IMG/VR virus record: IMGVR_UViG_3300008267_009201
Span: 1 to 55,910 of that record
Strand: one strand, 5' to 3'
DNA from: a virus
DNA length: 55,910 nucleotides
In this document: positions 407 to 55,773 of the stretch, in pieces
Position numbering within the stretch: the first letter of the stretch is position 1
Layout: each line of letters starts with the position of its first letter
The notes under the pieces: model-generated
Seen by the model: the letters and a program-made list of their open reading frames with translations, nothing else
The model's database searches: none
Told to the model about the DNA's origin: nothing
Translations under genes and position numbers: made by a program

Positions 407-1174
407 TTAAGATAAACTATTCATAATACCCTCAATTTTAGATGCACTTCTTGACACCGCACTGTTTCTTCTTGACTGTATCGCAACTTTTTTAAGTTCA
501 GGAATTGATGTATTACCTTGTTCAACTTCTTTATTTATTGCGTTCGCAAATTTTTGAAAAAATCCAGAACCATTCCAAGACGCATATATAAAATGAAATA
601 ATAATCCATTACTTTTTTTGACAATTTTTTGAGATTCAGGAGATAAGTATTTTTCAAATAACTTATTAAAATGCGGCTCCATTATTTTTACAACCAAATC
701 TTTTAGTCTTTGTTCTAAATTTCCTCCTCTAAAATAATGTTTCCAAATTTTTCTATTTTTATTTTTATCAATAGTATCCCAAAACTCAACCCCTGCGGTA
801 CTTGTGTTTAAGGTACCACCATGTTTTCTATCAATTCCAAACATAGTCTCACCTGAGTCTCCCATACCTGATGACTTGTGCCATTGTGGATTATAATATC
901 CTCCTTCTAATTTATCGATAACTAACTCAGTCATTTTTTTAAAATCACCTGAGACGGTACCAAACGAATTATCTAAATTAGGTTCATCTGGGGTGATTGA
1001 AGTGTCTTTACTATCCTTATCGTCTTTTTTTGTAAATTTACCACTTACTCTTTGTTTAACTCTATCTAATATTGCCTTTATAAAACTATCTTGAGTTGGT
1101 TCAATATCTTCTTGCTCGTTAATTTTAGAATTAACAATTTTTTTTAATTGTTCTTCAGTTATTTTTATTTTCAT
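407..1174 (-). CDS. GH108-like lysozyme (N-acetylmuramidase) with N-terminal capsid-targeting-like peptide
   Basis: 255 aa. Residues about 80-120 read LVIDKLEGGYYNP followed by GETMFGIDRKHGG. This is the signature of glycoside hydrolase family 108 muramidases, in which the glutamate of the EGGY motif (here E90) is catalytic. The C-terminal half contains YASWNGSGFFQKFANAIN, which resembles the small peptidoglycan-binding domain usual in this family. It should cleave peptidoglycan glycan chains. Unusually it has an N-terminal extension: residues 1-20 (MKIKITEEQLKKIV...INE) are a short amphipathic segment ending in I-N-E, followed by a polar linker to about residue 70. The gene is one of the few here with a Shine-Dalgarno-like GGAG, about 8 bases before ATG. 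It is the last gene of the minus-strand run 2785 to 407. No holin is visible next to it. Confidence 0.78.
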   Translation of the reverse strand: MKIKITEEQLKKIVNSKINEQEDIEPTQDSFIKAILDRVKQRVSGKFTKKDDKDSKDTSITPDEPNLDNSFGTVSGDFKKMTELVIDKLEGGYYNPQWHKSSGMGDSGETMFGIDRKHGGTLNTSTAGVEFWDTIDKNKNRKIWKHYFRGGNLEQRLKDLVVKIMEPHFNKLFEKYLSPESQKIVKKSNGLLFHFIYASWNGSGFFQKFANAINKEVEQGNTSIPELKKVAIQSRRNSAVSRSASKIEGIMNSLS

Positions 1175-1204
1175 ATCTTATCTCCAAATTTTTCATAAAA
1201 GTAT

Positions 1205-2569
1205 TTAAGAATTGCAAAATTCATATGTGCCAATTAGACCAACTAATTTTAAATTCCCATCTTGAGCATAATTCCAAGTTTCTCTCCCACCTTGTGAAAA
1301 TCCTGCGATTGATGATACTACTCCTCCAAATTTTTCTTTTACGTATTTCTTTACGTTATTTAAATTATTATAATGGTGAGTAATTACAATTATCTTATTA
1401 TTACTGTAAGGTTTTAAATAAGGTATGTATTTCTCCATTGCCGAACGATTTGCAGTACCTTTAGAATATCCTGAAGTGTGAGCTCCACCAAATAAAACGT
1501 GTACTTGATTTCCTTTATATGAATCTGACTTAATAATTACATATTCGTTATCACCAGTTATTTCTGAATTAGTTTGAGATGGTTTGGATTGAACCTTTTT
1601 AGGGTCAAGTAATCTTTCTAATGTTTTATTGTCAACTGATGACGATACGGTTAGTGATTGGTCTTCTTGGAAAGTCTCTAAAGCCTTTTTAGTTTTAGGA
1701 CCAAATAAACCATCAACACCACACTTACCTAAGTCGTAGTTCAATCTGTTAAGAATGTTTTGAATTTCGGTCACTGGTGAACCCATATGACCAATTCTCA
1801 TTACCACATCACCTTTTTTAATTTGTTCTAAAGTCGGAGACTGTGAGTAAGACTTTGTAGGTTGACATCCTGACTTTTTAAATTGTTTAACTGTTTCTTT
1901 TTCAAGTTTAGGGTCAACCTTATCACTCTTATAATAATCATCAATTTTTGAATCAGGAATTTTGTCTTTTACTTGGGTACCTGAAGATTCTCCTCCAACA
2001 TAATATAAATGCCAAGGTTCAGCTTTACGTAAAACCCCATCAGATGGGTATGATACTTTAAATCCAAATTTACCACAGTTGTCAGCAACCCATTTCTTAA
2101 CATCAGAATTTTGGTTCCACCAACTAGGTTCAACACTTATAATATCAAAAGTTTTACCTGTGTGGTGTTGTGAGAATCCAGGTAACGCAGAATATCTTTG
2201 TCTTTTACTAACACCACCATCTCTCACAATTTTACCACCAAAAGTATCAACCTGTTTATCATAACTTCTATATGACGAAACAACACCTTTATTTACATTT
2301 GGGAAAGTCTGTTTGAGTTTACTAATTAATTTATTAATTTGTTTTCTCGCCGTCGAATCTTCACCACCGTTATCTTCGTAATATTGACCTTCTTGTTTTA
2401 ATTCATCATTAACGTTAGAATCAGTAATTGTAACATTGTATTTTGATTCAACACGGGATAAAGCAGATTTTATATCAGAAGGTAAATCTTTGTTAACTTT
2501 TTCAATTAACAAACCATATTTTTTTAAAATATCATTTTTTTCAGATTCAGAAATAATCAACTTTCCCAT
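1205..2569 (-). CDS. VanY-type D,D-carboxypeptidase (M15) + peptidoglycan-binding domain + short hydrolase-like tail
   Basis: 454 aa with three parts. (1) Residues about 75-190 are a peptidase M15B domain with SQHHTGKTFD at 133-142, matching SxHxxGxxxD with zinc ligands H135 and D142, and EPWH at 184-187 giving the catalytic Glu and third ligand. (2) Residues about 255-325 fit a PG_binding_1 module (GSPVTEIQNILNRL, VDGLFGPKTKKALETFQ). (3) Residues about 345-454 contain a G-x-S-x-G elbow (GFSQGG), as in alpha/beta hydrolases, but the protein ends soon after, with no room for the usual Asp and His. Residues 1-23 resemble the capsid-targeting-like peptide of neighbours and end L-I-E. Predicted role: trimming peptidoglycan peptides. 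An ATATTTAT motif ends 5 bases before ATG. Confidence 0.8.
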   Translation of the reverse strand: MGKLIISESEKNDILKKYGLLIEKVNKDLPSDIKSALSRVESKYNVTITDSNVNDELKQEGQYYEDNGGEDSTARKQINKLISKLKQTFPNVNKGVVSSYRSYDKQVDTFGGKIVRDGGVSKRQRYSALPGFSQHHTGKTFDIISVEPSWWNQNSDVKKWVADNCGKFGFKVSYPSDGVLRKAEPWHLYYVGGESSGTQVKDKIPDSKIDDYYKSDKVDPKLEKETVKQFKKSGCQPTKSYSQSPTLEQIKKGDVVMRIGHMGSPVTEIQNILNRLNYDLGKCGVDGLFGPKTKKALETFQEDQSLTVSSSVDNKTLERLLDPKKVQSKPSQTNSEITGDNEYVIIKSDSYKGNQVHVLFGGAHTSGYSKGTANRSAMEKYIPYLKPYSNNKIIVITHHYNNLNNVKKYVKEKFGGVVSSIAGFSQGGRETWNYAQDGNLKLVGLIGTYEFCNS

Positions 2570-2572
2570 TAT

Positions 2573-2785
2573 TTATAAATATCTAATCAGTACAGAAATG
2601 AATTCTGCCTCCGATAAACTATAAATACCTTGTTTATAGGAATAATTTAATATACGTCTAATCAAATCTTTTTTTTGAGTGTCTGATAAATTTGATATTA
2701 ATGGAGATAAATCTTCGTTTGGATTATAATTAATTGTTTCAAAGATAGTTTGATTAAGTATTTTTTCTTCATGAGTATTATCCAT
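2573..2785 (-). CDS. Small hypothetical protein, 70 aa
   Basis: 70 aa, acidic N-terminal half and a helical C-terminal half (DLIRRILNYSYKQGIYSLSEAEFISVLIRYL region). It has no signal peptide or membrane segment and I do not recognise a family. It is first in the minus-strand unit with the VanY and lysozyme genes: its stop lies 3 bases before the VanY-like ATG. It is transcribed divergently from the gene at 2823, with a palindromic AT-rich promoter region between them. Tight packing and a good upstream signal support it as a real gene. Confidence 0.65.
   Translation of the reverse strand: MDNTHEEKILNQTIFETINYNPNEDLSPLISNLSDTQKKDLIRRILNYSYKQGIYSLSEAEFISVLIRYL
2575..2582 (-). promoter_or_regulatory. 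RTATTTAT box before the VanY-like gene
   Basis: The minus strand reads ATATTTAT then AAATA then ATG (gap 5). It is part of the palindrome TATTTATAAATA, so an exact TATAAATA is also present on both strands here. Confidence 0.4.
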
Positions 2786-2790
2786 AGACG

Positions 2791-2810
2791 ATATATTTAT
2801 ATAAATAATA
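2791..2810. promoter_or_regulatory. Divergent palindromic promoter region between 2785(-) and 2823(+)
   Basis: The 37-base divergent gap holds ATATTTATATAAATAATA. It contains ATATTTAT on plus (2793-2800), TATAAATA on plus (2800-2807), TATTTATA at 2794-2801 (TATAAATA on minus) and TTATTTAT on minus. This fits a back-to-back pair of late-type promoters driving both neighbouring genes. Confidence 0.5.
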
Positions 2811-2822
2811 ACATTATTAAAA

Positions 2823-4133
2823 ATGAAAGAAACCCACCTAATAAAAAAAATTAGAGAAATAATTAAAGAGACTAGTTCGGCTTCAGCTTCAGGGTTTTAT
2901 AATATACCATTAAGTCCTGGATTAAGAATATGGAAGAAAAAACAACTTGGTGCGTTTACTGAAAAACTTAATGGGTACGATAATGCGGAATTATATGTTG
3001 ATGCATTAGACGGTAATATTGACACCAAAAATGCAGCAGAAAAAGAAAAAGTATCTGAAAAGATATCTAAGTATTATGAAGAACACCCAACTCAAAATGA
3101 CGATGATGGGGACATATTAAATGATTTTTCAGGAGATATAAAAGAGGCGACTTCCGGATATGGTGGAGAATATAATCCCCCATTAACTTTTGGAAATATG
3201 GAATGGGACGAACATTTAGTTGCACCATTTATAAATCACTCTTCACATGACCATAATGAAAAAGTCATTAAAAAAGAACTACAAGGTAAAATAAAATTTA
3301 AACATAGTGGTCACGTTGAAAAGGACCATCCAAAAAAAGGTAAAATAAAAAAATTAATAACACCCAAAGAAAATAAAGACGTTGTTAGTGAAGATTTAGC
3401 GGTTTGGTTTGGTAAGAAAAAGAAACCAAAAGGTAGTAAACAACCCAAAGGTCCTTGGGTAAATATTTGTAAAAAAGTTGATGGTAAACACCCACCTTGT
3501 GGTAGACCAAAGGCAACAGACCGAGCGTATCCTAAATGTCGAGCTGCGGGAGTTGCAGGTAAAATGTCAGACTCTGCAAAAAGAAATGCGTGTCAACAAA
3601 AAAGAAGAGCTGAAAAAACACACCCTAAATCAGGTACAGGAAACAAACCAAAAATGGTTTCCCATAAAACAAATGAAAATATGTCAAAAAAAATTAAAAT
3701 AACCGAGTCACAATTAAAAAATTTAGTACATTACCTTAACGAAGAAACCACGTTACCAATAACTCTTTCATGTATGGAGCCCGATAACCCAAATTCACCA
3801 GGTATCCAATTTAAAAATTTAAAATTTGTAAATAAATCTACAAATCAGGTTGGAAATAAACAAGAAACAACTTTTGTGTTTGATAAAACGAGTATGGAGG
3901 CGTATCAACAAGAATCGGGACAACAAAAATTTACAACAATTAAAATTGAAAATCCTGAATTATCAAAAGTTCTTGAACAAAGAGGTTTTAAAAACGCATC
4001 AAGTTTTAATTTCTTAAAGACTTATCATTTAAATAGAAAATATTATTGTGGAGTTTCCTTTAATAAAGATAACGATTCATCAGATACTTTTGCAAAAACA
4101 AATAATCTTGTTTCAGTCAAACCAACAAAATAA
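2823..4133 (+). CDS. Fusion protein with two capsid-targeting-like peptides and a Cys/Lys-rich domain
   Basis: 436 aa, function unknown. Residues 1-16 (MKETHLIKKIREIIKE) are a basic amphipathic segment ending I-K-E. The middle is polar and charged. Residues about 200-270 form a basic Cys-containing domain (GPWVNICKKVDGKHPPCG, then YPKCRAAG, then NACQQKRRAEK) of a type I have seen in T4-like and cyanophage proteins, possibly metal-binding through four Cys. At residue 287 (plus 3681) an internal Met begins MSKKIKITESQLKNLVHYLNE, a second copy of the peptide seen at the start of neighbouring proteins, followed by about 130 residues of unknown fold. The gene therefore looks like a fusion of two once-separate genes, or has an internal translation start. 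It converges with the lipoprotein gene and both stops lie in a hairpin. Confidence 0.7.
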   Translation: MKETHLIKKIREIIKETSSASASGFYNIPLSPGLRIWKKKQLGAFTEKLNGYDNAELYVDALDGNIDTKNAAEKEKVSEKISKYYEEHPTQNDDDGDILNDFSGDIKEATSGYGGEYNPPLTFGNMEWDEHLVAPFINHSSHDHNEKVIKKELQGKIKFKHSGHVEKDHPKKGKIKKLITPKENKDVVSEDLAVWFGKKKKPKGSKQPKGPWVNICKKVDGKHPPCGRPKATDRAYPKCRAAGVAGKMSDSAKRNACQQKRRAEKTHPKSGTGNKPKMVSHKTNENMSKKIKITESQLKNLVHYLNEETTLPITLSCMEPDNPNSPGIQFKNLKFVNKSTNQVGNKQETTFVFDKTSMEAYQQESGQQKFTTIKIENPELSKVLEQRGFKNASSFNFLKTYHLNRKYYCGVSFNKDNDSSDTFAKTNNLVSVKPTK

Positions 4134-4146
4134 TACTATTTTGTTG
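4123..4146. terminator. Hairpin at the convergent gene ends
   Basis: CAACAAAATA (4123-4132), loop ATAC, TATTTTGTTG (4137-4146) is a perfect 10-bp inverted repeat. It spans the stop codons of the convergent genes ending at 4133(+) and 4136(-). GC is low and no long T run follows, so it may be a weak bidirectional terminator. Confidence 0.45.
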
Positions 4147-4396
4147 TTAAAGAATCTAATTTTTGTAAATCTTCGTCACTCACAAAGTATAGTCCAACAA
4201 ACTTGTCAAATTCACTTTTAGGTAATGTTTTAAGGTGTCTTGCCAATGTTTGTTGAGAATACCAATCATCGGAGTGTGCCTCTTGTTTTTGAATTACACA
4301 AGTTTTTGTGTTTTTACAACATTTTTTATTTGTAACACAAGAAGATAAAAATATTACTGATAATAGAACAAATAAAAATTTGATAGATGATTTCAT
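4136..4396 (-). CDS. Small lipoprotein, 86 aa
   Basis: Start chosen at the second Met (4396) because an ATATTTAT box ends 4 bases upstream; the Met at 4402 would give two more residues and lies inside the box. The N-terminus is MKSSIKFLFVLLSVIFLSSC: a basic start, a hydrophobic stretch and the lipobox L-S-S-C, so signal peptidase II should cleave before Cys20 and lipidate it. The mature protein is polar and begins with a Cys/Lys-rich segment (KKCCKNTKTC), then contains DDWYSQQTLARHLK. The likely location is the periplasm or outer membrane of the infected cell. Possible roles are an outer spanin or a superinfection-exclusion lipoprotein. No matching inner-membrane spanin is seen beside it, so I do not choose between them. 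Confidence 0.72.
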   Translation of the reverse strand: MKSSIKFLFVLLSVIFLSSCVTNKKCCKNTKTCVIQKQEAHSDDWYSQQTLARHLKTLPKSEFDKFVGLYFVSDEDLQKLDSLTTK

Positions 4397-4400
4397 ATTC

Positions 4401-4408
4401 ATAAATAT
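4401..4408 (-). promoter_or_regulatory. RTATTTAT box before the lipoprotein gene
   Basis: The minus strand reads ATATTTAT-GAAT-ATG, gap 4, relative to the start at 4396. It decides the start choice. Confidence 0.4.
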
Positions 4409-4453
4409 TTAAGTTTATATTGTAAAGTTACATTAAAATTCCCGTTGTACAAA

Positions 4454-4461
4454 ATATTTAT
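4454..4461 (+). promoter_or_regulatory. RTATTTAT box before the HExxH gene
   Basis: ATATTTAT lies 9 bases before the ATG at 4471, with an A-rich spacer (TAAAATAAA). Confidence 0.35.
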
Positions 4462-4470
4462 TAAAATAAA

Positions 4471-4863
4471 ATGAAAGTTTGTTTAAAATACCCCAAAAAG
4501 ACTTTAACTAATAAAGAATTAAAAGTTCTTGGTGAATTTATTACTTTATTACAAAAAATAATGCCACTTTCAGGTGAAATAAATATATCATTATTAAATG
4601 AAAGAATTGGTAAAATGACAACAGGTTCTTATAAAAACAGTGAACACAGAATTAAAGTTTTAATTAAAAATAGATTACTCGCGGATATGTTAAGAACTTT
4701 ATCACACGAATGGGGACATGCGTTTGATAGAGAACACATAAATTTTAAAGATAGAAGAGATGTTGGTGGCGAATCTGAAAATTTTGCAAATGCGATATCA
4801 GGAGCGGTTACTAAACACTTCATCAAAAAAAATCCAAAGATTGAAAAAGTGGTTTTTGAGTAA
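4471..4863 (+). CDS. Small HExxH putative zinc metallopeptidase
   Basis: 130 aa. The motif SHEWGHAFDRE at residues 78-88 gives H79-E80-x-x-H83, the zinc site of metallopeptidases, and GGESENFAN at 99-107 offers a Glu (E101 or E103) as third ligand, as in gluzincins. It has no signal peptide, so it should act in the cytoplasm or in the virion. The length is near the minimum for a peptidase catalytic core. The substrate is unknown. The gene is alone on the plus strand, and its TAA directly abuts the stop of the convergent gene at 4864. Family assignment beyond a zincin fold is not possible from sight. Confidence 0.65.
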   Translation: MKVCLKYPKKTLTNKELKVLGEFITLLQKIMPLSGEINISLLNERIGKMTTGSYKNSEHRIKVLIKNRLLADMLRTLSHEWGHAFDREHINFKDRRDVGGESENFANAISGAVTKHFIKKNPKIEKVVFE

Positions 4864-5262
4864 TTAATTACAAATTTTAGAATAGATAGTCTCTAAAGAA
4901 TGTTTAATTTGAATGTCCAAATCTTTCTCCATTTGTAAAGCTCTTTCCTCCATCTCCTTTTTAAAGAAATCCTTCAATTTTGACCAATCTATGTCAGGTA
5001 ATTTGATAAAGTAACTGTAAGTATGGTTAGTGATTGTTACTTCACCTTCTTCCATAGTGATAAAAATACCATATTGTTCGTTCTTAATGTATTTTTTTCT
5101 TGAGATTGGGGCAATTAACAATTCTGAATTTGGATTATGAATTAATCTTCTACAGATTGCGGTACATTGGTTAATACGTGTTCTTTGTAACTTTCTTAGT
5201 TCGGTTTCACCTACATTTCTAACGAAAATTTTGTAACGAGCAATTAATCTTTTAAGTGACAT
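4864..5262 (-). CDS. Hypothetical protein, 132 aa, with a host-type promoter
   Basis: 132 aa, basic N-terminal third (MSLKRLIARYKIFVRNVGE..., then TRINQCTAICRRLIH) and a charged C-terminal helix (LKDFFKKEMEERALQMEKDLDIQIKH in part). I do not recognise it. It lacks the RTATTTAT box found at most unit starts. It has instead a good Bacteroidota-type promoter 21-51 bases upstream, and its third positions are less AT-rich than those of its neighbours. This suggests expression by unmodified host RNA polymerase, perhaps early in infection, so a host-takeover role is possible but unproven. Confidence 0.65.
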   Translation of the reverse strand: MSLKRLIARYKIFVRNVGETELRKLQRTRINQCTAICRRLIHNPNSELLIAPISRKKYIKNEQYGIFITMEEGEVTITNHTYSYFIKLPDIDWSKLKDFFKKEMEERALQMEKDLDIQIKHSLETIYSKICN

Positions 5263-5282
5263 GGTTTATTTGTTTATGTCTA

Positions 5283-5313
5283 CAAAGATATAACAAAAAT
5301 TTTATTTTAACAA
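5283..5313 (-). promoter_or_regulatory. Bacteroidota-type promoter for the 132-aa gene
   Basis: The minus strand reads TTG (5313-5311), 20 bases, then TATCTTTG (5290-5283). This fits the Bacteroidota pattern of a -33 TTG and a -7 TAnnTTTG exactly. It would start transcription around 5277, giving a leader of about 15 bases. Confidence 0.6.
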
Positions 5314-5810
5314 TAAGGTGGTGAACATTTTTTCTTACCGTCTAATCCTGGCATTCTACCTTTACACACTTGTACTGCGTAACCGTTAGCGTAGGCACTT
5401 GGGTAAACTTTAAACTTTGACTTTGCCGCGGATTTACCACGAGAACATAATTTTGTTCCTGACTTTTTACGACCTTCATTCATTTGGTACATTGACAATG
5501 CTTGGTCAGGATTTTTTTCAGTCATCGCTAAATCATCAATAATATTGTCATCTTCCATAACCTCTTCAGATTTCCACATATCACCACTTTTAGTTTCATT
5601 CATTAAAAAATCAAATACTTGGTCCATATTGTTTTTTGCCTCGGCAATATGGTCCTGAGCCCAATCGTGACCGTTTGATAATATTTCCTCAACCATTTTA
5701 TGGTCTAAATCCAACAATAGTCCACATTGTCTTCTCATCTGTTCTAAATTACTGAAAAACATATATCTTTCAGATTCTTCTTTTAAAATTTTTTTAATTA
5801 ATTTTTCCAT
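5307..5810 (-). CDS. Virion-associated candidate with C-terminal VYPSAYAN (DUF5872-like) domain
   Basis: 167 aa. Residues 1-11 (MEKLIKKILKE) form a basic amphipathic peptide ending L-K-E, like its neighbours. Residues about 115-167 carry LCSRGKSAAKSKFKVYPSAYANGYAVQVCKG split by conserved turns, with Cys residues at each end and a final KKCSPPYC. The KF-x-VYPSAYAN block recurs in phage proteins that I believe belong to the DUF5872 group; function unknown. The middle is acidic and helical. The gene follows the 168-aa gene with a 1-base gap, so the two are probably co-translated. The Cys-rich C-terminus parallels the Cys-containing domain of the 436-aa protein at 2823. Confidence 0.68.
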   Translation of the reverse strand: MEKLIKKILKEESERYMFFSNLEQMRRQCGLLLDLDHKMVEEILSNGHDWAQDHIAEAKNNMDQVFDFLMNETKSGDMWKSEEVMEDDNIIDDLAMTEKNPDQALSMYQMNEGRKKSGTKLCSRGKSAAKSKFKVYPSAYANGYAVQVCKGRMPGLDGKKKCSPPYC

Positions 5811-5811
5811 A

Positions 5812-6318
5812 TTACCCTTTTAATTCTTCTTTTAATTGGTCACAAATTATAGATAAGAAAGATTCAATTTCTCTTTCTAATCCTTCATATTTTTCAAATA
5901 AGTTTTCACCTTCTTCGGATTCAAAATTACATACCGAATAATCCCCATCAGATGTACAGTATATTTCACCGTAAAATTCGTCACTACCTATTGTAAAGTA
6001 TCCTGAATGAATAATCTCATCCAATCTTTGTTCGGTTACTTCATATTTGAATGACATTTTTGGTATTCCTGGTGCTCCGTCAAAATTCCAAACTTCACCT
6101 GTCTGAACTAATTCTTTTGATGATGTTAATTCTTCATCATCTAAAAATTCATTAGTTAATGAATAATGGTCTAAATAGTTTTTTTCTTTGTCTGTTAACG
6201 ATTTCATACCTGAAGAATTAATCTTATCAAGTATTGCGTCAATTTCTTCCATACCCTCATTTAAAAAGTTATCAATTATGAATTTTAATTGAGATTCTTT
6301 TAATATTAACTTCTTCAT
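5812..6318 (-). CDS. DUF6576-like protein with N-terminal capsid-targeting-like peptide
   Basis: 168 aa. Residues 1-21 (MKKLILKESQLKFII...LNE) are a clear copy of the shared N-terminal peptide, ending L-N-E. Next, residues about 25-50 read IDAILDKINSSGMKSLTDKE followed by KNYLDHYS. This matches the short DUF6576 helix-turn-helix-like motif (LDKI-x-x-x-G-x-x-SLT-x-x-E) found mainly in Bacteroidota proteins. The rest is acidic with EIYCTSDGDYSVCNF, and no catalytic motif is seen. Its ATG overlaps the stop of the 497-aa structural gene by 4 bases, so it belongs to the late structural operon. Confidence 0.68.
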   Translation of the reverse strand: MKKLILKESQLKFIIDNFLNEGMEEIDAILDKINSSGMKSLTDKEKNYLDHYSLTNEFLDDEELTSSKELVQTGEVWNFDGAPGIPKMSFKYEVTEQRLDEIIHSGYFTIGSDEFYGEIYCTSDGDYSVCNFESEEGENLFEKYEGLEREIESFLSIICDQLKEELKG

Positions 6319-29839: not shown

Positions 29840-30223
29840 TTAAGTAAAATTCGCTAAAATGTCAATTGATACCATTCTTTTATCTCCATTTGGATTAAAT
29901 CCTGGTCTGACCTCTGAAAACATGTCATCTGTTATACTTACACTTAGAATGTCTTTAACTTTAAAATACCTCCAACCTGGCATAGGTCTTGTCCTTAAAA
30001 ATCCTCTATGTGATGCACCCTCCCTTTCCCAAGCACATAGTACCTGATTACCTTTTTTGTTTACACCTAAACAAACAGGTTCAATTACTCTAATTCCTTT
30101 ACCTCCGGGTTCATCACCATTGTATGTTATATACAATACTTTACGTTGGGATATTGCATCCCTTATATCACGCAAAGTGACAGTTTCCAACAATAGTGAT
30201 TTAAATGACTCTAATAATTTCAT
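29840..30223 (-). CDS. WYL-domain-like protein with N-terminal capsid-targeting-like peptide
   Basis: 127 aa. Residues 1-13 (MKLLESFKSLLLE) end L-L-E. Residues 18-105 follow the WYL pattern: IRDAISQRKVLYITYNGDEP, GIRVIEPVCLGVNKKGNQVL, CAWEREGASHRGFLRTRPMP and GWRYFKVKDILSV. WYL domains bind nucleic-acid-type ligands and act in bacterial transcription regulators and CRISPR or defence proteins. Here there is no helix-turn-helix, only the domain itself. The ATG overlaps the upstream stop by 1 base. Function in the phage unknown. Confidence 0.7.
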   Translation of the reverse strand: MKLLESFKSLLLETVTLRDIRDAISQRKVLYITYNGDEPGGKGIRVIEPVCLGVNKKGNQVLCAWEREGASHRGFLRTRPMPGWRYFKVKDILSVSITDDMFSEVRPGFNPNGDKRMVSIDILANFT

Positions 30224-30994: not shown

Positions 30995-31829
30995 CTTTTT
31001 TTCCTAAACTAATTCCTTCTTTATCGGCCATTTTCTTTAGAGATTTAATATTATTTAAAAAAGTCTTAGACATTTTAGGTTCTTTTTTTGTAATGTCCGA
31101 ATCTCTTTTATTTTTTTGAACTAAAATATCTTCGATAAGTTTTCTCGCGTCCTCATTTCTTTTTTCCTCAATCTTCCTTTTTTCAAATAAATTAAATGTA
31201 CCTACAAAATCTTTTTTACTCTTAATTTTTTTAGGTGTGTTTTTTTCTTTTTTATCTTTAATGTCCTTACCAAATTTTTCAGTCCTATCTTTAGCATCTT
31301 CAGGTTCCATACCCATATTTTTAACTAAATATTTGAATGTTTTTTTACCATCCATATCTTTAGTTTCTTCGTACCCAAACGCTCCTTCCATATCAACCTC
31401 AAGTACAGGGCCGTCCTCAATGGATTCGCCATAATAGACTCTATATCCACGAGTAACGGGATTGTTTGTTTGTCTCGTGGCAACAACTTCCTGGTCAGTA
31501 GTTTTAATTGGGGATAATTTAGGATTTATAATCGGAATTTTTGAACTTAAAAAAGTACCATCGTAATCTACCAATTCCCCAATCTCACCTTTGAAATTTT
31601 TCAGACGAGATTTCAAATCCTCCGTATTTTTTAACTTTTTTTCTTTCTGAATTTTTTTAATTTCTTTTTTGATTTTCTCCACATTTTTCTTTTCAAATAT
31701 CATTATTTCATCATTTTTTCTTGCTTCATTTAATGTGTTTGAAATTGAATAATACAATGCAACATCATCTTCTCTTTCTTTTAAAAAGAAGTAGTAGTTG
31801 TTTGAGAAAGTTTCAATTTTATTATTCAT
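30987..31829 (-). CDS. Hypothetical charged protein, 280 aa, possible packaged protein
   Basis: 280 aa from the ATG at 31829; the longer frame starts at a TTG at 31898 inside the divergent gene and adds hydrophobic residues, so I reject it. It is strongly Lys/Glu-rich (EKIKKEIKKIQKEKKLKN, KDIKDKKEKNTPKKIKSKKD), probably coiled-coil and disordered. One ordered segment (RGYRVYYGESIEDGPVLEVD followed by MEGAFGYEE) lies in the middle. Residues 1-18 end F-F-L-K-E, another (L/I)-x-E. Composition resembles internal head or core proteins of T4-like phages, but that is inference. Confidence 0.58.
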   Translation of the reverse strand: MNNKIETFSNNYYFFLKEREDDVALYYSISNTLNEARKNDEIMIFEKKNVEKIKKEIKKIQKEKKLKNTEDLKSRLKNFKGEIGELVDYDGTFLSSKIPIINPKLSPIKTTDQEVVATRQTNNPVTRGYRVYYGESIEDGPVLEVDMEGAFGYEETKDMDGKKTFKYLVKNMGMEPEDAKDRTEKFGKDIKDKKEKNTPKKIKSKKDFVGTFNLFEKRKIEEKRNEDARKLIEDILVQKNKRDSDITKKEPKMSKTFLNNIKSLKKMADKEGISLGKKDE

Positions 31830-47319: not shown

Positions 47320-47327
47320 ATAAATAT
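47320..47327 (-). promoter_or_regulatory. RTATTTAT box before the neck gene
   Basis: The minus strand reads ATATTTATAAATAAAAACT-ATG. The box is 11 bases from ATG, and an overlapping TATAAATA ends 6 bases before ATG. Confidence 0.4.
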
Positions 47328-48037
47328 CAATCTGACTTTTTAGTTTTAGATAAATAAAGTTCATTTATGAACTTCCAATTAATAGCATCCCAAAAATTTG
47401 TAATGTACTCATCTCTTTTGTTTTGATACTTTAAATAATATGCGTGTTCCCATAAATCTAATCCCAATATTGGGAATCCTCCTCTATCAAATATATTCAT
47501 TAAAGGGTTATCTTGATTTTGAGTTGACATTACTTTTAACCTACCACTTTTTGTAATTACTAACCAAACCCATCCTGACCCAAATCTATTTTTTGCAACT
47601 GATTCAAATCTATCTTTAAATTCTCTGTAAGAACCAAAATCTTTTTTTATTTTTTCTAAAACTTCACCAAAAGGTTTTTGTGGGGATGGGGATAACATTT
47701 TCCAAAACAATGCGTGGTTAAATGCCCCTCCTGCGTTATTTCTAATGATTGTATTGTACTTTGAAATTTTTCTAACAATATTTTCCAACTCAACGTCACC
47801 GTAGTCTTTTTTTCTAAGAGCTGAGTTTAATTTTTTTACGTACCCTTTATAATGTTTTTGATAATGAAACTTCATTGTCTCAGGGTCAATAAATCTACGT
47901 AGAGACGCATAACCATATGGTAGTTTATCAATACCTATGGTTCTCATTTCATTAATAAAATACTTAGTTTCAGGTAAAACTACTTCTCCTGTTATTTTTT
48001 TTTGTAAAGATTCTGATAATAAATTAAGTGATTTCAT
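47327..48037 (-). CDS. sodA: Superoxide dismutase, Fe/Mn family, Mn-type, with N-terminal extension
   Basis: 236 aa from the ATG at 48037; upstream GTG-type starts lie inside the helicase gene. Metal ligands are all present: H58 (FHYQKHYKGYV), H108 (NNAGGAFNHALFW), D194 and H198 (GLDLWEHAYYL). The G-G in NAGGAFNH and Gln in STQNQDNPLM are the Mn-type outer-sphere pattern, and Y66 matches the conserved active-site Tyr. It dismutates superoxide. The SOD fold begins near residue 38, leaving an extra 37-residue head that starts MKSLNLLSESLQKKITGE, similar to the peptides on packaged-type proteins here. SOD genes are uncommon in phages. It lies between neck and helicase genes. Confidence 0.9.
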   Translation of the reverse strand: MKSLNLLSESLQKKITGEVVLPETKYFINEMRTIGIDKLPYGYASLRRFIDPETMKFHYQKHYKGYVKKLNSALRKKDYGDVELENIVRKISKYNTIIRNNAGGAFNHALFWKMLSPSPQKPFGEVLEKIKKDFGSYREFKDRFESVAKNRFGSGWVWLVITKSGRLKVMSTQNQDNPLMNIFDRGGFPILGLDLWEHAYYLKYQNKRDEYITNFWDAINWKFINELYLSKTKKSD

Positions 48038-51683: not shown

Positions 51684-54600
51684 ATGGCTAAATCAAACAC
51701 AGTTTTCGTTTCTCCAGGTGTATACACATCTGAAAGAGATTTGAGTTTTGTGTCTCAAAACGTCGGTGTAACTACTTTAGGTATTGTTGGGGAAACGGTA
51801 AAAGGTCCGGCCTTTGAACCGATTTTCATCACAAACTATGATGAATTCCAACTTTACTTTGGTGGGACAACACCTGAAAAATTTGTGAACACACAAATAC
51901 CTAAGTATGAAGCTGCGTATATCGCAAAATCTTACTTACAACAATCTAATCAACTTTTTGTAACTCGTGTATTAGGGTTATCAGGTTACGATGCGGGACC
52001 TTCATGGTCAATTAGCACAGTAGCTAATGTTGATTGTAGTACTGTTGGATTCAACGGCTCACCAACAACATATACTGTTAATTTCACAGGTACTACTGCG
52101 TCAACAAACACGATTAGTTTTACAACAAGTTTCCCGTCAGTTATAAACGCGAACCTTACTGAAAATTATACAACTTTTAATGGTGGAACATCAACAATTT
52201 CAGATGATGTTAAAGCATTGTTATTAGGTATTATGAGAACCCCAGCGTCTTCGGCTTATACTGCAAGTATGTGGGGAACTAATTTAGGTTCTAGTTACAC
52301 TTCATTTGCTAATACATATTCAGCGATAACTAATGAATTTGGCGTTACTAGTTTATCGGCAATTACATGTAATGCAAATAATGACCCATGGTTTTATTCA
52401 AATTTTGATTTAACTACAGGAAATACTTACACAGGTTATTCATTTAATGCTGCAGTAACTACAATGACGGGTACAGCAGGTTCATTCTCAGGGATTATGT
52501 CAGGTACTTACTTTACTCTTACAGGTACTGCATTTTCAAATTACAATAATATTGTTGTAACAACTCTTCGTTCAAGAGGATTGGCAGATTATGCAAATGA
52601 TGCGGGTCCAGTATACCAAGTATCTGCAACAACAGGATTAAGTATGGTTTGTTCAGGAGCTTATTCAGGAGTAACTAAAAATCCGTTCACAACTTTCTTG
52701 TTAACTGGAGTTACAATAGAAAATACTAATTTCACTTATGAAGTTAATCTTTTAGAGACAAGTCCAAATTATATTTCAAAAGTGCTTGGGGTATCAAACT
52801 TTGGTAAACCTAGAACAACTTTCCCATTATTTGTGGAGGAGACTTACTCTACTTTATTAAATTATGCATATAACAAAGGGTATATTCGAGGATTAAATTG
52901 TACATTAGATACAACATCTAAAGCAAGAGATTTAACCGCAGATTCATTAGGTTGGTATTTAGAACAGTACCAAAGTGCTGAGTCTCCTTGGGTTGTTTCT
53001 GAATTACGTGGTAATAAAGTATACGAATTGTTTAAATTCTTCACAATTGCCGATGGTAATAATTCAAATACTCAAGTTAAAGTAACAATTGCAAACATTT
53101 CATTTACTAATGGTACTTTTGATGTGATTGTTAGAGATTTCTACGACACTGACAGTAATCCTGTAGTTGTTGAGAAATTCTCAAATTGTAGTATGGACCC
53201 AGGATTAAACAACTATATCGCTAAAAAAATCGGTACATCTGATGGGGAGTTCCAATTGAATTCTAAATATGTAATGTTAGAAGTTAATGTTGACGCACCG
53301 ATAGATGCATTACCATGTGGTTTTGAAGGTTATATTAATAGAGAGTACCCTTCAGCTACACCGGCATATCCAGTTTATAAGACTAAATATTACATTCCTG
53401 GTGAGACTATTTATGACCCTCCTTTTGGAAACTCTGCAGGTACAAACAATGATACTCAAAGTTCAGGTGACAATGTAAGAAGAAGTTACTTAGGGTTCTC
53501 AAGTCAATTTGGAGTTGACGAATCATTATTAATCTATAAGGGAAAACAAAATCCTGTTAGTGATTTCTGTGATGCGACAACAGGTTCAGATTGGGCTTAT
53601 CTTTCTAAAGGTTTCCATATGGACAGTGGAGCAACTGCTATTACAATATCACAGTTAAATCCTAATTATGGTGGTTTAGTTACTTCAGGAAATCAGGCGT
53701 TTGATTGTGGTGTTGCATCATTTAATAGTGAACCTACATCAGAAACTAACCCTTACTACAGATTATTTTCACGTAAATTCACTATGGTATTACAAGGTGG
53801 ATTTGATGGATGGGATATCTATACTGAAAGAAGAACTAATTCTGACAGATTTGTATTAGGTAGAAGTGGTTATTTGGCAGGAGCGTGTGTTTCTACAACA
53901 TATCCTTTAGCAACTGGAACAGGAATGTTTAAACAAATTACTGTAGGTGAAAATAGTGTCGATTGGGCAAATACCGATTACTACGCATATTTGTTAGGAC
54001 AACAAACTTTCTCAAATCCTGAGGCGGTTAATATAAATGTGTTTGTGACACCTGGTATTGACATTGATAACAACAGTAATCTTGTAGAATCAGCAATTGA
54101 TATGATTGAAAACGATAGAGCGGATTCAATTTATATCACAACCATTCCTGACTTCAATTTGTTACAACCATCAACATCTATGGATAATTTATATTACCCA
54201 CAAGAGGTTGTTGACATTTTAGAAACTTCAGGTATCGATTCAAATTATACGGCAACTTACTATCCTTGGGTGTTGACTCGTGATACAGTTAATAACACAC
54301 AAATTTATCTTCCAGCAACTGCCGAGGTAACAAGAAACTTAGCTTTAACTGATAACATTGCGTTCCCATGGTTCGCAGCCGCGGGTTACACAAGAGGTTT
54401 GGTAAATGCAATTAAAGCACGTAAAAAGTTAACTCAAGAAGATAGAGACACTCTTTACAAGGGAAGAATTAACCCAATTGCAACTTTCAACGATGTTGGA
54501 ACAGTGATTTGGGGTAATAAGACTCTTCAAATTAGAGAATCTGCTTTAGATAGAATTAATGTAAGAAGATTGTTATTACAAGCTCGTAAGTTGATTTCAG

Positions 54601-54860
54601 CAGTGGCTGTAAGGTTATTGTTTGAACAAAACGATGCGGTGGTTAGACAACAATTCTTAGATGCGGTTAACCCTATCTTAGATTCAATTAGAAGAGACAG
54701 AGGTCTATACGATTTCAGAGTGACAGTTCAAAACACACCTGAAGATTTAGATAGAAATCAAATGATTGGTAAAATCTATATTAAACCTACTAAGGCGTTA
54801 GAATTTATCGACATTGAGTTCTTAATCACACCGACAGGTGCGTCTTTTGAGAACATCTAA
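51684..54860 (+). CDS. gp18: Tail sheath protein (gp18-like), enlarged
   Basis: 1058 aa. N-terminus FVSPGVYTSERDLSFVSQNV and GVTTLGIVGETVKGPAFEPI with EFQLYFGG and EAAYIAKSYLQQSNQLFVTR is the sheath signature. C-terminus NTQIYLPATAEVTRNLALTD, FPWFAAAGYTRGL, RINPIATFNDVGTVIWGNKT, RINVRRLLLQARKLISAVAV and FIDIEFLITPTGASFENI is the conserved core that polymerises on the tube. T4 gp18 has 659 aa; here some 400 extra residues lie mostly between about 110 and 340 (Ser/Thr/Gly-rich, TGTAGSFSGIMSGTYFTLTG) and 400-700. They would form outer domains on the sheath surface. Confidence 0.9.
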   Translation: MAKSNTVFVSPGVYTSERDLSFVSQNVGVTTLGIVGETVKGPAFEPIFITNYDEFQLYFGGTTPEKFVNTQIPKYEAAYIAKSYLQQSNQLFVTRVLGLSGYDAGPSWSISTVANVDCSTVGFNGSPTTYTVNFTGTTASTNTISFTTSFPSVINANLTENYTTFNGGTSTISDDVKALLLGIMRTPASSAYTASMWGTNLGSSYTSFANTYSAITNEFGVTSLSAITCNANNDPWFYSNFDLTTGNTYTGYSFNAAVTTMTGTAGSFSGIMSGTYFTLTGTAFSNYNNIVVTTLRSRGLADYANDAGPVYQVSATTGLSMVCSGAYSGVTKNPFTTFLLTGVTIENTNFTYEVNLLETSPNYISKVLGVSNFGKPRTTFPLFVEETYSTLLNYAYNKGYIRGLNCTLDTTSKARDLTADSLGWYLEQYQSAESPWVVSELRGNKVYELFKFFTIADGNNSNTQVKVTIANISFTNGTFDVIVRDFYDTDSNPVVVEKFSNCSMDPGLNNYIAKKIGTSDGEFQLNSKYVMLEVNVDAPIDALPCGFEGYINREYPSATPAYPVYKTKYYIPGETIYDPPFGNSAGTNNDTQSSGDNVRRSYLGFSSQFGVDESLLIYKGKQNPVSDFCDATTGSDWAYLSKGFHMDSGATAITISQLNPNYGGLVTSGNQAFDCGVASFNSEPTSETNPYYRLFSRKFTMVLQGGFDGWDIYTERRTNSDRFVLGRSGYLAGACVSTTYPLATGTGMFKQITVGENSVDWANTDYYAYLLGQQTFSNPEAVNINVFVTPGIDIDNNSNLVESAIDMIENDRADSIYITTIPDFNLLQPSTSMDNLYYPQEVVDILETSGIDSNYTATYYPWVLTRDTVNNTQIYLPATAEVTRNLALTDNIAFPWFAAAGYTRGLVNAIKARKKLTQEDRDTLYKGRINPIATFNDVGTVIWGNKTLQIRESALDRINVRRLLLQARKLISAVAVRLLFEQNDAVVRQQFLDAVNPILDSIRRDRGLYDFRVTVQNTPEDLDRNQMIGKIYIKPTKALEFIDIEFLITPTGASFENI

Positions 54861-54930: not shown

Positions 54931-55773
54931 ATGAAAAAAATTTTTGAAGGTTTCACAAAAGAAGGTACTCCTGATTTAAAATACTACGCATTTGATTGGG
55001 ATGATAATATCATGTATATGCCAACTAAGATTATTTTAAAAGATAAAGAAGGTAAAGAGGTTGGAATGGGGACCCATGATTTTGCAAAATATCGTACATT
55101 AATAGGTAAAGAAGATTTTGAATATAATGGTAATACAATTGTAGGATTTTCAGAAGACCCATTTAGATATTTTGGAGAAAAAGGTGACGAAGAGTTTTTA
55201 ATAGGTTGTATGATGGCAAGAAAAGGTCCGGCATGGAGTGATTTTGTGGAAGCAATAAATGGAGGGTCTATTTTTTCAATTATTACTGCGAGAGGTCATC
55301 ATCCTAATACTTTAAAAAAAGCGGTTAAACAATTAATTGAAGGTGAAATTGATGGTATCTCTAAAAGTGAATTGGTTAAAAATTTAAAAAAATATCGTAA
55401 CAAAGTTAAAGGACTCCCAACTGAAAAATTGGATGATAATACACTTATAAATTTATATTTGGAAATGTGTCAGTTTTATCCTGTCACACATGGTGAGGGT
55501 AGTGCGACTAATCCTGAAGATGGTAAAGTTAAAGCGATGAGAAAATTTATATCTTATGTTAGACAACAAGCAAAAATTTTACAACAAGACGTAGAAATGA
55601 TTGACGATGTATCCAACTCTTTCATTCCACAAATAGGTTTTTCAGATGATGACGAAAGAAATTTACAAGCAATGATGAATAAATTATCAGATGAGGAAGA
55701 AAAATCTTTAAAAATGTATACTACTAAAACTGGTGAAAAAAGAAAATTTCAAGGAACTAGTAATGAAGACTAG
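54931..55773 (+). CDS. HAD-superfamily protein between sheath and tube genes
   Basis: 280 aa. YYAFDWDDNIMYMPTKI at residues 17-33 is HAD motif I (D-W-D-D-N; nucleophile and acid/base Asp). FSIITARGHHPNTLKK near 113-128 is motif II with T-A-R-G, and GFSDDDERNLQAM at 245-257 is motif IV with three Asp. The insert between motifs is large and helical. The T-A-R-G and DD-x-x-x-N blocks are like those of HAD proteins in many T4-like phages. N-terminus MKKIFEGFTKEG is faintly like the shared peptide but lacks L/I-x-E. In T4 genes 18 and 19 are adjacent, so this is an insertion. Confidence 0.75.
   Translation: MKKIFEGFTKEGTPDLKYYAFDWDDNIMYMPTKIILKDKEGKEVGMGTHDFAKYRTLIGKEDFEYNGNTIVGFSEDPFRYFGEKGDEEFLIGCMMARKGPAWSDFVEAINGGSIFSIITARGHHPNTLKKAVKQLIEGEIDGISKSELVKNLKKYRNKVKGLPTEKLDDNTLINLYLEMCQFYPVTHGEGSATNPEDGKVKAMRKFISYVRQQAKILQQDVEMIDDVSNSFIPQIGFSDDDERNLQAMMNKLSDEEEKSLKMYTTKTGEKRKFQGTSNED

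Follow-up and report, generated by a model that had tools for sequence, protein, structure and literature searches.

The DNA considered here is a 55.9-kb virus fragment from IMG/VR (IMGVR_UViG_3300008267_009201; hereafter, the window), whose left part encodes a set of unrelated proteins that begin with short peptides ending in (L/I)-x-E, referred to below as tags. An earlier note on this DNA had likened the tags to the capsid-targeting sequences (CTSs) of phage T4, which the prohead protease gp21 removes, and the 5 N-termini on which it drew were recovered in the open reading frames (ORFs) with the same starts and (L/I)-x-E positions (Table 1). A megablast comparison of the window with phage records gave no match, nor did tblastn with a 25-residue tag, which is too short a query; the T4-like tail sheath (phrog_23) encoded in it places the phage among T4-like myophages. 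Its closest relative is G013, an 84-kb contig with a 511-aa protein 90% identical to that of the window, which reveals the content past the window's left edge: terminase, portal, S77 protease (2e-26), scaffold, and gp23, the major capsid protein (MCP), of which terminase, portal, scaffold, and gp23 were named from position and resemblance. The tagged genes adjoin gp23 in G013, following it directly in the same order as in the window, and the S77 gene lies beside tagged genes. The same head cluster is present in G006, a larger relative (203 kb), and together the S77 protease and the head cluster establish these relatives as T4-like phages with a gp21-type protease; the head genes, including that for the S77 protease, lie outside the 55.9-kb window, and the protease evidence comes from the relatives.

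Table 1. Tagged proteins, their tags, and the tail sheath in the window.
Feature	Position	Strand	Basis
255-aa tagged protein; tag residues 1–20, ending I-N-E	407..1174	-	ORF
Tag of the 255-aa protein, MKIKITEEQLKKIVNSKINE	1115..1174	-	ORF and orthologues
VanY D,D-carboxypeptidase with PG_binding_1, 454 aa; class B-like tag, L-I-E at 21–23	1205..2569	-	Pfam VanY 1e-22, PG_binding_1 6e-13
Tag of the VanY protein, MGKLIISESEKNDILKKYGLLIE	2501..2569	-	Similar tags on unrelated bodies (L057, L074)
436-aa basic, Cys-containing protein; two tags (1–16, I-K-E at 14–16; internal, 287–307)	2823..4133	+	phrog_23735, 2e-5
N-terminal tag of the 436-aa protein, MKETHLIKKIREIIKE	2823..2870	+	ORF
Internal tag copy of the 436-aa protein (residues 287–307), MSKKIKITESQLKNLVHYLNE	3681..3743	+	C-terminal in several homologues
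167-aa protein (phrog_27331); tag MEKLIKKILKE, L-K-E at 9–11	5307..5810	-	Orthologues with other tags
Tag of the 167-aa protein	5778..5810	-	ORF and homologues
DUF6576 (PF20216) protein; tag MKKLILKESQLKFIIDNFLNE, L-N-E at 19–21	5812..6318	-	Pfam 4e-12
Tag of the DUF6576 protein	6256..6318	-	ORF and homologues
WYL-like protein; short tag MKLLESFKSLLLE (30185–30223)	29840..30223	-	Pfam WYL 8e-6
Fe/Mn superoxide dismutase; 30-residue N-terminal extension (47948–48037) ending F-I-N-E before M-R-T-I-G	47327..48037	-	Pfam Sod_Fe_C 4e-40, Sod_Fe_N 9e-22
T4-like tail sheath, untagged	51684..54860	+	phrog_23, 5e-56
280-aa DWDDN protein; very short N-terminus MKKIFE↓G (↓, boundary), weaker candidate	54931..55773	+	Homologues

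The earlier note had reported K-I-T-E-x-Q-L in several tags. Only the 255-aa protein starts with an exact match, so that "several" was loose; the other copies are variants (LKESQL in the DUF6576 protein, ISESEK in the VanY protein, and KIKITESQLKNLVHYLNE in the 436-aa protein, the last being internal, within residues 287–307). A position-specific scoring matrix (PSSM) made only from the 4 KITE-type copies of the window was searched in other contigs with a cut-off of ≥14 bits, yielding 49 matches at protein starts (approximately 18,000 positions) versus 19 internal ones, past residue 40 (approximately 567,000 positions), a match rate per position approximately 80-fold higher at starts than inside. 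All-against-all N-terminal scores, with 1 random member per body family, were confounded by low complexity and residual homology, and we relied on the network listing instead, in which N-termini connected 38 families whose bodies (residue 41 onward) have no BLAST similarity to each other; the groups formed by control internal segments were almost entirely of low complexity. In IMG/VR phages, tags of these kinds begin the proteins of well over 100 unrelated families.

The largest set, class A, has the consensus MKK(I/V)(I/V)RLTESDLxRIVKRVIxE, of which only the first 12 residues were used to search IMG/VR, leaving residues 13–22 outside the pattern. The search retrieved at least 137 nonredundant ORFs, with at least 108 body families among at least 150 bodies. 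Among the matches listed, [ILVFM]-x-E occupies residues 20–22 in 126 of 137, compared to 1.9% at control positions, and the information content drops from 3.8 bits at E22 to 1.2 at residue 23 and to less than 0.5 from residue 26. In bacterial and archaeal genomes representing 84,980 species, only 4 class A matches occurred (3 in rumen Bacteroidales/Prevotella contigs of metagenome-assembled genomes [MAGs] and 1 in an alphaproteobacterial MAG, on a 3-kb contig), indicating that the tag is a phage feature. Shared N-termini could also arise if DNA were copied at gene starts, as a promoter or translation-initiation cassette or a recombination arm, rather than through selection for a functional peptide, and the tag does sit at gene starts, with A/T-rich DNA upstream in all cases. 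However, synonymous codons vary freely (among the matches listed, Arg18 is encoded by AGA in 51, CGA in 31, AGG in 14, and CGT in 14), the upstream sequences have nothing in common beyond A/T richness, and the peptide of class F, described below, is also found at scaffold C-termini. Codon variation and unshared upstream DNA imply that what is conserved is the peptide; the copied-DNA explanation, which we consider highly improbable, was rejected on codon variation.

Two further classes were defined. The class B pattern, (I)(S/T)E(D/E)EKxRIL(N/G/E)(M/L)H...YLxEQ, is free of any start-codon anchor, and all 81 unique matches, spread over 42 body families, have an in-frame ATG 2–7 codons upstream. 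Class E, FFNLMESTIGDVKPLI(N/S/T/V)E, has 19 real members, with E following PLI-x in every one. Proteins at L452:38–643, L300:3155–3592, and G013:8459–8890 carry two consecutive tags, opening with the class B-like MKHLLNNISEEEKNxIREQH and continuing with a class E peptide.

Tags are exchanged between homologous bodies. Six single-linkage families contain bodies that are class A-tagged in one phage and class B-tagged in another; pairwise alignment showed clear homology in several of these families and only shared low-complexity stretches in the others. The proteins of L396 and L205 are clearly homologous along the whole body, with the tag changing exactly at LTE↓GL, and other tag-swapped pairs are L324/L260, L293/L328, and L323/L306. 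Homologues of the 167-aa protein keep the body start YMFFSNLEQ beside very different tags, with [IL]xE preceding it in 23 of 23, and [IL]xE is likewise present in 8 of 8 anchored homologues of the DUF6576 protein. Among homologues of the superoxide dismutase (SOD), the extension mostly ends (L/I)xE↓MKKIG, which suggests that it was put in front of an old start methionine. The tag boundary, the swapping, and the conservation at the protein level are consistent with a targeting propeptide that can be removed.

Class F, (S/N)E(E/Q)FxRMQKLAG(I/L)I(T/N)E, came to light in an isolate, Flavobacterium phage immuto, and an unanchored pattern search found it in 119 unique ORFs, 58 times at the N-terminus, 56 times at the extreme C-terminus, and 5 times elsewhere; the class spans about 41 body families. 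Nearly all C-terminal copies (51 of 55) belong to a single family, the scaffold encoded between the protease and gp23 (for example, ...KKPIVE↓SNDAFLRMQKLAGIIK), and both forms occur within one genome in G061, G063 (immuto), and G064. Among the tagged proteins of immuto are immuto26A_188, 191, 194, and 195. In gp22-position scaffolds of immuto-like phages (L491, L503, L508, L534, L551, L498, and L613–L619), the conserved end (I)xE..AFxRMQKLAGIIK matches N-terminal tags of unrelated proteins. [ILVMF]-x-E follows the N-terminal copies in 54 of 58 and precedes the C-terminal copies in 52 of 56, so that, whichever terminus bears the tag, a putative cut site separates the address from the body. The class F matrix also matches scaffold C-termini of the window's lineage (..LIE↓SKTYENPQFLRMKDLMGK), in which we found no cargo tags of the class F scaffold-end form. 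The likeliest mechanism for class F, judging from these sequences, is that the tags mimic the end by which the scaffold docks, presumably its C-terminus. The same observation lends itself to another explanation, namely, that the peptides are assembly (core) domains and the proteins bearing them minor scaffold or core parts that are consumed in maturation rather than delivered: the scaffold family itself ends in the class F peptide, and L/I-x-E likewise occurs in gp67, gp68, and gp22 of the T4 core (PMC9026906). We consider this quite improbable, given that the bodies, as the class A counts illustrate, are very diverse and phage-specific and include catalytic enzymes; nor was any series of internal cleavage sites noticed, in an inspection that was not a systematic test.

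Maturation proteolysis provides a further link to the head. A gp21-like protease, whose absence the earlier note would have held against its own reading, was detected in the relatives, with Pfam S77 matches in both G013 and G006. T4 gp21 cleaves after L/I-x-E, 10 CTS residues are sufficient for entry into the T4 head, and replacing the P1 Glu with Asp abolishes cleavage in T4 while packaging still occurs (PMC9026906); in the lineage of the window, gp23 carries an invariant QASxLINE↓(A/S) site (28 of 28). Besides G013, the S77 protease was found in 18 of 20 tag-bearing contigs of ≥130 kb (12 of 12 with class A and 6 of 8 with class B/E tags), as well as in 7 of 7 class F contigs (94–175 kb). 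Propeptides of the phiKZ/SPN3US type were considered and rejected: the ejection proteins of those phages are also packed into the head and carry N-terminal propeptides cut after x-E (PMC5694885), but their protease is of the S80 family and cuts at A/S-x-E, whereas the protease of the tag-bearing phages scores above the Pfam S77 cut-off and their tags end in I/L-x-E.

The tags are thus terminal, modular, swapped, conserved at the protein level, and end at (L/I)-x-E in phages with an S77 protease, which leads to the reading that they are T4-style capsid-targeting propeptides, greatly expanded. The capsid-targeting proposal of the earlier note is accordingly supported by the S77 protease of the relatives, the position of the genes beside gp23, the LINE site, the sharp tag boundary, and the tag swaps, and on this sequence evidence we regard it as probable. 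Several observations weigh against it. The S77 frequencies come from tag-bearing contigs alone, without a matched background of untagged large phages, and 2 tag-bearing contigs of ≥130 kb, G047 and G052, have no recognizable S77 protease, perhaps through incompleteness. Counts of bare (L/I)-x-E close to the N-terminus did not significantly exceed those in shuffled sequences in the window (17 of 56 proteins versus 12.6 ± 2.6) but did so in G013 (44 of 99 versus 24.1 ± 4.3); the real signal is the similarity of the peptides, (L/I)-x-E by itself being weak evidence. Some tail-region proteins (in L041, starting MKVVITESQFDNLFLGKK..., and in L025) begin with MK(I/V)xITESQ but have no L/I-x-E after it, and the C-terminal tags of the 436-aa family lack a clear preceding L/I-x-E. 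Class A, B, and E peptides were sought in all proteins of the loci and found in no scaffold; likeness to the scaffold was seen for class F only. Finally, the amphipathic character ascribed to the tags in the earlier note holds for the class A consensus and the tags of the 436-aa and 167-aa proteins but not clearly for those of the 255-aa, VanY, and DUF6576 proteins; amphipathicity is not general among tags.

Only a handful of 73 representative tagged families match Pfam. The recognizable bodies are VanY with a peptidoglycan-binding domain, PG_binding_1, LysM, TseH-like, SOD, DUF6576, WYL, and a weak DHH match, the commonest domains being wall-binding or hydrolase. The description of the proteins as an enzyme delivery set was therefore too narrow: some are enzymes, but most bodies match no known family. 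The prevalence of cell-wall hydrolases and binders, as in endolysins or tail lysins, and the proximity of some tagged genes to the tail sheath might instead indicate that the peptides serve for docking to, or co-assembly with, another late structure (tail, baseplate, or a membrane-associated lysis complex) and are never cleaved or packed into the head. We find this improbable, because tagged genes also cluster beside gp20–gp23, conservation ends at a protease-type site of the same form as the MCP site, the scaffold ends in a peptide matching the class F tag, and SOD, WYL-like, and DUF6576 proteins are among the bodies.

Among individual proteins of the window, E7, E20, and Q21 of the 255-aa protein are invariant across 5 orthologues. 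The earlier note had called this protein a GH108 lysozyme, a family that we could not confirm: there was no sequence match in Pfam, PHROG, or PDB, and only a conserved LEGGYY..SGETM motif was seen. An AlphaFold2 model of moderate confidence has a helix at residues 7–19, ending at I-N-E, and a low-confidence linker (low confidence at 18–29 and 40–74), followed by a helical domain past residue 75, and it matched no PDB fold significantly. Homologues of the 436-aa protein have tags at the N-terminus and helix tags at the C-terminus; the phrog_23735 family (window 3681–3743; G006:119310–120290; L332, L340, L387, and L401) combines a tag-like C-terminal helix with an N-terminal tag, and in the window's protein an extra domain is fused behind the helix. 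Of the further candidates named in the earlier note, the WYL-like protein and the SOD are supported: the window copies have LLLE and FINE, respectively, and [IL]xE is present in 4 of 4 and 21 of 21 homologues, whereas the 280-aa protein at 31829 is rejected, as its FLKE is FMKD in the G006 orthologue. The DWDDN protein, of the same length, has [ILVFM]xE ahead of its domain in 59 of 59 homologues and [IL]xE in 44 of 59. Phages of this group conserve the SOD next to the neck gene (window 47327–48037; L024, L041, L060, and others); the protein is often approximately 500 aa long, with an additional C-terminal part, and is possibly virion-borne. A large block with genes on both strands (approximately 12674–41042) encodes glycosyltransferase-, methyltransferase-, and sugar-metabolism-like proteins. 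The hosts of tag-bearing phages are probably Bacteroidota, which fits the excess of Bacteroidota-type promoter sites, TTG-N18-22-TANNTTTG, in G006 and G013 (somewhat less than twice the shuffled frequency); no such enrichment was seen in the window itself.

As capsid-targeting propeptides, the tags would act as follows. A tagged protein would be made late in infection and docked by its tag into the prohead during assembly of scaffold and shell; the gp21-like S77 protease would cut after (L/I)-x-E at prohead maturation, and the freed protein would remain alongside the DNA inside the head and accompany it into the next host cell. We infer docking, cleavage, presence in the head, and ejection from sequence, and the cargo functions (cell-wall hydrolysis, superoxide removal, and countering of host defense) are equally presumptive; as a guess, wall-active cargo would fit local digestion during genome entry, and SOD could counter oxidative stress.

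The likeness claimed to the T4 CTSs (of IPI–IPIII and Alt, removed by gp21) is one of logic: in both cases, a short terminal propeptide on unrelated proteins ends in L/I-x-E, in a phage with an S77-type protease, the same site in the MCP, and T4-like head genes. T4, however, has a handful of CTS proteins with propeptides of 6–10 residues, whereas here several tag classes of roughly 6–31 residues serve well over 100 families and are exchanged among homologous bodies, class F also matching the C-terminus of the scaffold, while T4 gp22 ends in VSVYAKVASRF, with no similar peptide. In P22, cargo fused to the C-terminal part of the scaffold (residues 238/239–303) is encapsulated in vivo (PMC9962691), and class F tags resemble a naturally occurring counterpart of such fusions, which are man-made and use a scaffold domain of approximately 65 residues rather than a shared peptide of approximately 16 with an adjacent protease site. 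Polyvalent proteins (PMC5512222) are likewise conflict proteins delivered by the virion, but long and multidomain, unlike the many small, separate proteins with a common address tag seen here. No earlier description of these tags was found in the open-access literature searched, in which a search for the motif text also gave no phage paper.

On a broader proposal, we are evenly divided: that the tags form a general head-address system in T4-like and jumbo phages of Bacteroidota, in which cargo acquires, at the opposite terminus, a peptide that mimics the end by which the scaffold docks and is separated from the cargo by a protease site, and by which hundreds of dark-matter families, including cell-wall hydrolases and a superoxide dismutase, would be injected with the genome. 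With the sequence rule, large numbers of phage proteins that lack annotation can be predicted to be packed into the head and injected, and scaffold mimicry suggests, in one lineage, how the address works. If this is true, the tags would offer a natural means of bringing proteins into phage heads, and the injected proteins are where counter-defense and early takeover functions are expected.

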